Assembly: GCF_000003815.2 (NCBI RefSeq) | Contig: NC_049989.1 | Location: 2,774,342-2,838,341, forward strand | Direction: 5' to 3' | Length of the DNA stretch: 64,000 nucleotides | DNA from: Branchiostoma floridae | Lineage: Eukaryota > Chordata > Leptocardii > Amphioxiformes > Branchiostomatidae | In this document: piece after piece, positions 9,501 to 12,500 of the stretch | How positions within the stretch are numbered: position 1 is the stretch's first letter | Layout: every line of letters starts with the position of its first letter | The notes under the pieces: generated by a model | What the model was told of the DNA's origin: nothing | The model's database searches: none | The model's input: only the letters and a program-made list of their open reading frames with translations | Position numbers and translations under genes: made by a program

Positions 9501-12500
9501 TTCAGGAATAACAGTATTGTTCTCGGGCATGTAAATATGTCTGTGTGTTAGTGTGATTCTGACTTTGCAAGAATTCTGCCATTTCTTCTTTGTTTGATGT
9601 GCAGTGACATTTTGCTATTATTTAGATGTATTTCATTTCTCTGACAAGACTTCCTCTTTTTTTCTTGCTTTCCAGGTTAAAATTAGATAAGGAGTTAGAA
9701 AACCAGAGAATTACATTTGGTAGTGAGTTAGAGAAGATGAGGAAAAAACACGCTGGAGAACTAGACAGAAAGGTGAGCGATTGTTCCTTTTGTTGAATCA
9801 AACTTCTTATATGACACTAACATCTAACAATACATGCCTGATATATAAATATATGTGTAAAATGCAAGCTCAATTTGATCAACGCATTGAAGGGGCATTC
9901 CACTAAGAAGCGAGTGTTATTTTCAGATAGATAATACTTTTGGGGATACAAATGCACTCGACTTTTCGCTACGATGTTCACCATGCATTTAGGCTTCAAC
10001 TTATCATAAATTTGACCAAACAAACTTGATTCAAGCATAACTATTTCTTCTCTGAGGAATTATGATACCCGCTTTTGCTCCTCTAAGTTTGGAATGTGTT
10101 TGGACCCTTTAGGAGTGGAATACTCCTTTAAGTTTGGAATGTGTTTGGACTTGTTAACACAATCTGAGAACCTTTAGAAGTGGAATGCTCCTTTAAGTTC
10201 GTAATGCCCTTAGACTTGTATAACACAATCTGGGACCCTGTACAAGTGAAATACTCCTTTAAGTTTGGAATGTGTTTGGACTTGTTAACACAATCTGGGA
10301 CTGACCTTTTCGCCCAGATCAAGAATGCAATAGCGGACGAGAAGAAGTTTGTGAAACAGATCCAGCAGCAGCAGGAGACAGAGCTGAAGAGCTTCCAGGC
10401 CATGCAGCGCCAGGAGTACAAGTTTAACAAGGAGAGGCTCAAAAAGGTACGTCAGGAGTACAAGTTTAACAAGGAGAGGCTCAAAAAGGTACGTCAGGAG
10501 TACAAGTTTAACAAGGAGAGGCTCAAAAAGGTACGTCAGGAGTACAAGTTTAACAAGGAGAGGCTCAAAAAGGTACGTCAGGAGTACAAGTTTAACAAGG
10601 AGAGGCTCAAAAAGGTACGTCAGGAGTACAAGTTTAACAAGGAGAGGCTCAAAAAGGTACGTCAGGAGTACAAGTTTAACAAGGAGAGGCTCAAAAAGGT
10701 ACGTCAGGAGTACAAGTTTAACAAGGAGAGGCTCAAAAAGGTACGTCAGAAGTACAAGTTTAACAAGAAGAGGCTCAAAAAGGTACGTCAGAAGTACAAG
10801 TTTAACAAGAAGAGGCTCAAAAAGGTACGTCAGGAGTACAAGTTTAACAAGGAGAGGCTCAAAAAGGTACGTCAGGAGTACAAGTTTAACAAGGAGAGGC
10901 TCAAAAAGGTACGTCAGGAGTACAAGTTTAACAAGGAGAGGCTCAAAAAGGTACGTCAGGAGTACAAGTTTAACAAGGAGAGGCTCAAAAAGGTACGTCA
11001 GGAGTACAAGTTTAACAAGGAGAGGCTCAAAAAGGTACGTCAGGAGTACAAGTTTAACAAGGAGAGGCTCAAAAAGGTACGTCAGGAGTACACGTTTAAC
11101 AAGGAGAGGCTCAAAAAGGTACAAGTTCAGCTAGAACGGTAACATTTTTGCAAAAATGCAGAATGTTTTCCCTCTAGCTTTGTGTCAAGCTACTCACATA
11201 CTGTAGTGTTAGGGAGTGAAGATCGGAATTAGGGCTATGAATGGGGGTATCTGAATAGCCTGACGTGATAGCCAGTCCAGGTAGACAGCATAGGTAGCCA
11301 GGCCTGGTGCACAGCCCAGCATTTTCCATAAACTTTTTCTGCTAGGAGAAAGAACACACCAGCAAAAACAATATATTTTTTCCTTCGGGAAAACATAACA
11401 AGGAGAAGGCTCAAAAAGGTACAGACTTGTGTGTTCAGGTACAAGTTTAACAAGGAGAAGCTCAAAAGACCTTTCATGTCTTCTATCTGAGGCTGTAGAT
11501 TCTGTGCCTAACAAATAGAAGGTAAAACTTAATATCAATTAAGATGAGACTATTTTTTCTCAGATTACCATGGAGGCCCATCTGTGTTGGTAGTAATCAT
11601 GTAGTACAATGCTAAATTTTCTTCTAACACAAAGATATACACGGATCATATTTTCAATTGCCACTGTCGCCCTCTTCAAGATCAATACTAAGTTTTGTTC
11701 CAAATAAAGTTTCAGTACTTTCACTTCCAAATTAATGCCCTAACGTGGCGACATTTCAAGAGAAGCATTGATATTTTCTTTGTGAAAGAGCAACTGCAAC
11801 AAAATTGTACCAAATTTTTTCCCCCACAGGAGATGGGTGACGACACCCCCAAGAAGGAACAGCGAGAGTCTCTGCGCAGCCAGAAGGAGAACCTGCAGCA
11901 GCTGCACGCGGAGGCGGAGATGTCTCTCGTACGCAGGCAGCGCGAGTTCCTAGAGATAGAAGTCCGCAAGTTCCGCCGGAGAAAGCTCTTGAAAAGACAC
12001 CTCCTCGAAACAGACTTTTTAAAAGAGGTGAGTGGAAAACTTAGTAAGAATTCTGTAAGACAAAAGGCTGTATTCACAGTTTCATGGGAGTTTAAATTAC
12101 ACATTGCTAGTATTGTGTTACACATTGCTAGTATTGTTTTACACATTGCTAGTATTGTGTTACACATTGCTAGTATTGTGTTACACATTGCTAGTATAGG
12201 TCAAGCACATAGAAAATTTGCTTGCCCGAACTAACTATTCACTTATCTAAAATGATATTTTACTATGTACTTTCACTTCCAGCAATAGAATTTGACTCAA
12301 TTTTTCTGTGTTGAATGTTGCTTGATGCTATGACTGTAAAGAGTAACAAGTATATCAAAATCTCACTCAAGGAAAAATCTTACTTGCCCGATCAACACTT
12401 TCACTTGACAATAGGTCTAGTGGACTTGTCCAACCCTGCAGTGCAATTCAGTTAACTACATGTACATCTAGTTAACTGCTAGACTGTTATTTCAAATGTT

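Follow-up and report, generated by a model that had tools for sequence, protein, structure and literature searches.

In an amphioxus TAO kinase (TAOK) gene, the end of an exon and the 5′ splice site that follows it form a 42-bp unit that is repeated in tandem, and the locus raises the question of whether the array lengthens the kinase in regular steps, through choice of donor, variation in copy number, or both, or is a recent and neutral intronic minisatellite that happens to lack stop codons. The original prediction for this DNA proposed the former and named the latter as its plain alternative. Positions given here are those of the window, the entire 64-kb stretch of DNA analysed, and a slash within a sequence or a pair of positions marks an exon–intron boundary.

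The predicted architecture, 17 copies of a 42-bp unit made of the last 36 nt of the exon and the donor that follows, is borne out both by TRF, which reports the array at 10411–11122 with a period of 42, 17.0 copies and a 99% match, and by comparison unit by unit. Repetition of the unit is far above chance expectation, and in a genome search its matches, among the best candidates scored, lie at the TAOK locus only. A single sequence is common to 14 of the 17 units. Two G>A changes, each converting Glu to Lys, recur in units 9 and 10, and unit 17 carries one A>C change (Lys>Thr) and then runs into the intron through GTACAA in place of GTACGT, for a total of 7 differences in 714 bases. Every unit contains AAG/GT, and GTACGT is present in 16 of the 17. 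The donor had been described as the same throughout, which is correct for donors 1–16 but not for donor 17, which agrees with the consensus at 6 of 9 positions as against 8 of 9 for the others. All 16 junctions between units read AAG/GTACGTCAG/GAG. The GTACGTCAG segment is thus a 9-base GT...AG, which is below intron size.

The gene carrying the array is identified as TAOK by a kinase exon that matches TAO2 and TAO3 far above other kinases: ORF 1797–2126 gives E-values of 3.7e-33 for TAO2 and 3.7e-32 for TAO3 against the PDB, with the next kinase at 1.2e-17, and matches Pfam Pkinase (2.7e-18), placing the kinase exon near 1905–2123. The exons starting at 10318 and 11830 have no match in Pfam, and in the PDB there is none for exon 11830 and a single chance-level match (E 0.96) for exon 10318; together these two exons presumably resemble the tail of vertebrate TAOK. 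The array exon is flanked on both sides by tandem repeats. A 65-bp × 3.1 array occupies 10102–10301 in the preceding intron, stopping 16 bases short of that exon's acceptor. In addition, a 21-bp × 4.8 array is found at 12097–12197, just past the donor (12027/12028) of the next exon. On the minus strand, Pfam identifies a myotubularin phosphatase exon at 32121–32360 (1.1e-26) and a FYVE domain at 23593–23892 (2.1e-07). Pfam recognises neither of the two array-bearing exons on that strand, at 38 and 41 kb, and both probably belong to the same myotubularin–FYVE gene, judging from strand, order and resemblance. A match of ORF 15459–15857 to AAA-ATPase_like fell below the model cut-off and was judged to be due to chance.

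Features of the TAOK array, its exon and intron, and the other apparent splice-site arrays of the window, with the basis of each assignment.
Feature	Position	Strand	Basis
Second TAOK 5′-splice-site array, four diverged copies	7699..8490	+	TRF; comparison of copies
TAOK exon of 43 codons when spliced from the first donor; both ends in phase 0	10318..10446	+	acceptor TTTTCGCCCAG/ATC, open frame
42-bp tandem unit × 17	10411–11124	+	TRF; unit-by-unit comparison
First donor GTACGT, likely the main 5′ splice site (presumed use)	10447..10452	+	position, sequence, published mirages
17th donor GTACAA, weaker; likely holds the original intron start	11119..11124	+	sequence
Read-through frame past unit 17, TAA stop at 11140–11142	11125..11142	+	open frame
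Two decayed unit copies in the array's own intron	11396..11467	+	local alignment score 75
Next TAOK exon, phase 0, donor GAG/GTGAGT	11830..12027	+	sequence
Apparent 5′-splice-site array, 138 bp × 2.6, probably myotubularin gene	38195..38554	-	TRF; presumed exon limits
Apparent 3′-splice-site array, probably the same myotubularin gene	41427..41755	-	TRF

The acceptor of the array exon lies at 10317/10318, preceded by TTTTCGCCCAG, and the last 36 nt of the exon as spliced from the first donor are the exonic portion of unit 1. From this acceptor, frame 0 is open through all 17 units as far as the TAA, and because the exon at 11830 starts in phase 0, each of the 17 AAG/GT donors joins to it in frame. 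The exon would measure 129 nt via donor 1 and up to 801 nt via donor 17, and the residues added range from 0 to 224 in steps of 14. The unbroken frame with phase-0 unit ends and the range of added lengths are therefore as originally predicted. Donors 1–16 are one common nine-base site, and no other GT between 10318 and 11830 scores as high. Frame 1 is likewise open over the entire array, and one minus-strand frame is open from 10285 to 11130 and crosses it, which brings the number of stop-free frames across the array to three or more out of six. The stop-free state is thus inherent in the short unit.

The frame-keeping of the array is not far beyond chance. When one-copy duplications were modelled at the array boundary with units of 30–60 nt containing 2–12 intronic bases (341 cases), 35% kept the frame without stops and 3.2% were also multiples of 21; among 13,272 wider duplications with units of 20–200 nt, the corresponding values were 6.3% and 0.9%. 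The narrower count is preferred because the TAOK unit contains only 6 intronic bases. Little weight therefore attaches to the open frame, given that about one third of comparable duplications keep the frame and that half or more of the six frames are free of stops. The match of the period to exactly two heptads was spotted only in hindsight and is a modest coincidence.

The encoded 14-residue unit has the a/d heptad spacing that had been claimed for it, with V(d), Y(a), N(d) and L(a). The proposed extension of a coiled coil by such units keeps this spacing in its favour but is otherwise thin: the unit has a net charge of +4 (+71 across 224 residues), its Asn occupies a core d position, and the Gly, Asp and Pro residues of EMGDDTPKK at the start of exon 11830 point to a break in the helix. 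AlphaFold2, run on the read-through product of 10318–11139 as a single sequence, predicts helices at residues 2–145 and 150–273 with a break near 146–149 (mean pLDDT 93.6). Charged repeats are readily modelled as helix from a single sequence, and the result is therefore given no functional weight. The array contains three distinct changes, all of them protein-altering, and 126 single changes are possible in the unit, of which 21 are synonymous and 9 create a stop. These changes give no sign of purifying selection, and three are too few to tell; a reading of selection from substitutions was dropped for this reason. The near-uniformity of the copies means that neither selection nor its absence is readable from the array.

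Two decayed copies of the unit lie farther downstream in the same intron. They differ from the unit by an insertion of one base and a deletion of two, additional bases separate them, and the frame is lost. The local alignment score of the unit at 11396–11467 is 75, as against a best score of 27 elsewhere, in a comparison that left out tiles touching the array, and a best score of 27 in base shuffles. Copies of the unit in this intron are thus free to lose frame, which supports a neutral origin of the array.

Similar arrays are present at other splice sites. TRF returned 18 rows for the 64-kb window, of which six have a period of at least 30 bp, and four of these six span an apparent splice site; in the arrays at 10102–10301 and 51288–51349, no splice site was seen by eye. 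Random placement of single units predicts that 0.36 to 0.85 of the six would span a splice site, and the probability of four is 0.0001 to 0.003 (0.002 to 0.026 for three of five when the TAOK 42-bp array is left aside), values that assume 40 to 100 splice sites in the window, an uncounted figure, and that apply to a 30-bp cut-off chosen afterwards. The second TAOK array repeats the 3′ end of the exon that begins at 7590, along with its AAG/GTGAGG donor, at spacings of 200, 190 and 199 bp; the GT is missing from copy 3, the frame is lost and stops are present. In the 38-kb array the unit consists of an exon end (YQGDPDYPVPSHMCHP..) followed by GTAAGA, and although its period is a multiple of 3, reading through it meets in-frame stops, while in the 41-kb array, with mixed spacing of 132 and 130 bp and likewise with stops, CCCTAG or CCCCAG precedes the exon start ADEEQMSLVHVQ....

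Loci outside the window were sampled through a kinesin family profile search, which gave 134 matches; TRF was run on 30 of these loci, which amount to 102,135 bases with some overlap, and rows were dropped when their period was below 20 or when they started within 60 bases of another row. Four distinct arrays with a period of at least 30 bp were found in these 30 loci. In the clearest case (locus L035, 1174–1588, on another contig), a 151 bp × 2.7 array spans an acceptor, so that the first part of a kinesin motor exon (NKSTCFAYGQTGAGKTHTM...) occurs three times behind TAG, with loss of frame. The 66-bp array of L018, which is also that of L029, spans a donor marginally, including about 4 nt of exon and the donor, and its read-through meets a stop. 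No splice site was seen in the arrays of L033 and L036. The splice-spanning class therefore exists outside the window, yet it is not the rule in this small kinesin sample. Of the six splice-spanning arrays (four in the window, L035, and L018/L029), only the TAOK 42-bp array is in frame and open.

Repeats of this kind have a precedent in amphioxus. Two papers (PMC3087553, PMC3902484) describe as "mirages" tandem repeats that lie across exon–intron boundaries in the genes for Adh, troponin C, globins and PGBD5. According to the globin paper, unit lengths are 10–72 bp in Adh3 (Canestro et al. 2002, as cited) and 150–160 bp in the globins, where mirages occur in BflGb6 and BflGb9; mirages show length instability, Adh3 data and globin RT-PCR suggest that regular splicing is undisturbed, the AG or GT present in many copies offers potential cryptic sites that could lead to alternative, possibly aberrant, transcripts, and mirages are proposed as a source of new introns (PMC3087553). 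The PGBD5 paper describes splice-site repeats of 60 and 108 bp in lancelet PGBD5, whose copy numbers in two genome versions are 2 versus 7 and 3 versus 6; it describes the mirages of Adh and troponin C as giving no aberrant mRNAs and suggests the same for PGBD5, for which a model that included the repeats as an exon (+57 residues) was set aside by the authors for want of transcript support (PMC3902484). A looser parallel is offered by the introns of VCBP3, which are described as containing partial exons with canonical splice sites (PMC2632668). In the open-licence literature, the matches for mirages are the globin and PGBD5 papers, the 10 of 20 matches listed for intron gain again include the globin paper, two mucin papers are among the matches listed for splice donors inside VNTRs, and none of the 20 matches listed out of 183 for TAO kinases names amphioxus. 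At the level of sequence, the TAOK array has the features of mirages: its unit crosses an exon–intron boundary as read from the sequence, splice signals recur in many copies (AAG/GT in all 17), and its length of 42 bp falls within the published range.

On this evidence, it is highly probable that the TAOK array is a recently expanded and probably neutral 5′-splice-site mirage spliced mostly from its first donor. The one-copy ancestor would probably have read ...AAAAAG/GTACAAGTTCAG..., as suggested by the two ends of the array. A segment comprising exon sequence and the first few intronic bases would have been duplicated in tandem, joining GGTAC to the exonic GTCAGG (now GCCAGG in the exon). 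By this step each new copy would have acquired GTACGT, which agrees with the donor consensus at 8 of 9 positions and is better than the original GTACAA, with 6 of 9. Slippage or unequal exchange may then have enlarged the array to 17 near-identical copies. The array would be transcribed as the beginning of the intron, the spliceosome would pick the exon-proximal donor in nearly all transcripts to give the ordinary TAOK protein, and copies 2 to 17 would leave with the intron. Main use of donor 1 (10446/10447) is expected with about the same high confidence as the mirage reading: since 16 donors share the same site and nearly the same context, the choice among them should depend mainly on position, and donor 1 is favoured because 129 nt is a more usual length for an internal exon than up to 801 nt and because mirages are reported to leave regular splicing intact. 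Occurrence of four of the six window arrays at splice sites, together with the published class, supports the mirage reading, and the broken frames or stops in the other splice-spanning arrays support its neutrality. Counting against it are the lack of any frameshift or stop in 17 copies together with a period divisible by 21, and the 15 downstream donors whose nine bases are identical to those of donor 1. The same is true of the possible cryptic-site use raised in the globin paper (PMC3087553) and of the 57-residue exon model for PGBD5. Rare splicing from later donors would yield in-frame proteins and could escape notice.

The alternative that the kinase is length-variable, with several of the 17 donors in use, allelic variation in copy number, or both, such that the protein carries variable 14-residue helical segments, is considered unlikely. 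Although each of the 17 junctions keeps the frame into exon 11830, donors 1–16 share the best-scoring site of the region, and the read-through is predicted, weakly and from a single sequence, to be helical, a frame is kept by chance in about one third of comparable duplications, broken copies are tolerated downstream, and the distal donors would create an exon of up to 801 nt encoding up to 224 extra residues with a net charge of +71. The published mirages bear on this alternative in both directions, as they differ in copy number and their copies could act as cryptic sites, but they are also reported or suggested to leave regular splicing undisturbed (PMC3087553, PMC3902484). Their variation in copy number makes allelic variation of the TAOK array plausible; a TAOK helical tail graded in exact 14-residue steps by donor choice combined with somatic or germline copy-number change is decidedly improbable. 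What remains of the original prediction is thus its geometry, and the neutral minisatellite that it offered as the plain alternative is the better explanation, since it fits a documented amphioxus class, the other splice-spanning arrays are out of frame or contain stops, and about 35% of comparable duplications would keep the frame.

Two further explanations have less to recommend them. The entire array could be exonic and spliced mainly from its last donor, in the manner of coding VNTRs, and both the frame that is open through all units and the last site, which probably retains the original intron start judging from unit 17 and its flank, would agree with such a coding expansion. However, the last donor is weaker than any of the 16 that lie upstream of it, and in vertebrate TAOK the sequence of unit 1 presumably runs straight into the EMGDD exon without extra repeats, which also counts against this explanation, regarded as the least probable of all. 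It is very unlikely, moreover, that a shorter array was inflated by the assembler, an error that would itself be compatible with a neutral mirage. Near-identical copies are a known difficulty for assembly, and the mirage copy numbers of PGBD5 differed between two lancelet genome versions (PMC3902484), but the distinguishing changes occur in order in units 9, 10 and 17, and 431 contigs for 513 Mb (513,431,437 bases), the longest seen being tens of Mb, suggest an assembly from long reads.

If the array is an ordinary mirage, the little-studied class of lancelet splice-site repeats gains four members from a single window, half of them in TAOK and half probably in a myotubularin gene, and a fifth from a kinesin gene; these additions hint that the class is common. 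The TAOK array also amounts to a natural splicing experiment, in which 16 donors with the same site are set at 42-nt steps in one exon context. If distal donors do serve, they would represent a new route to graded protein length, with minisatellites as its source.

The array has units made of part of an exon, a splice site and part of an intron in common with the mirages, whose units measure 10 to about 160 bp, lie at both 5′ and 3′ boundaries, and in some cases have high copy identity. It differs from them in its 17 copies, in having only 6 intronic bases per unit, and in that every copy is in frame and open; in addition, normal splicing is supported by published RT-PCR for Adh3 and the globins and is predicted for TAOK. 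Coding VNTRs of the mucin type likewise consist of in-frame tandem units in variable copy number, but each TAOK unit ends in a donor of its own and its inclusion in mRNA is hypothetical. Tandem alternative donors also compete in phase; in that case, two neighbouring sites are involved, whereas the TAOK exon has 16 donors with the same nine-base sequence spaced at 42-nt steps. The TAOK array is thus very likely a known kind of lancelet repeat, and an unusually tidy member of it.
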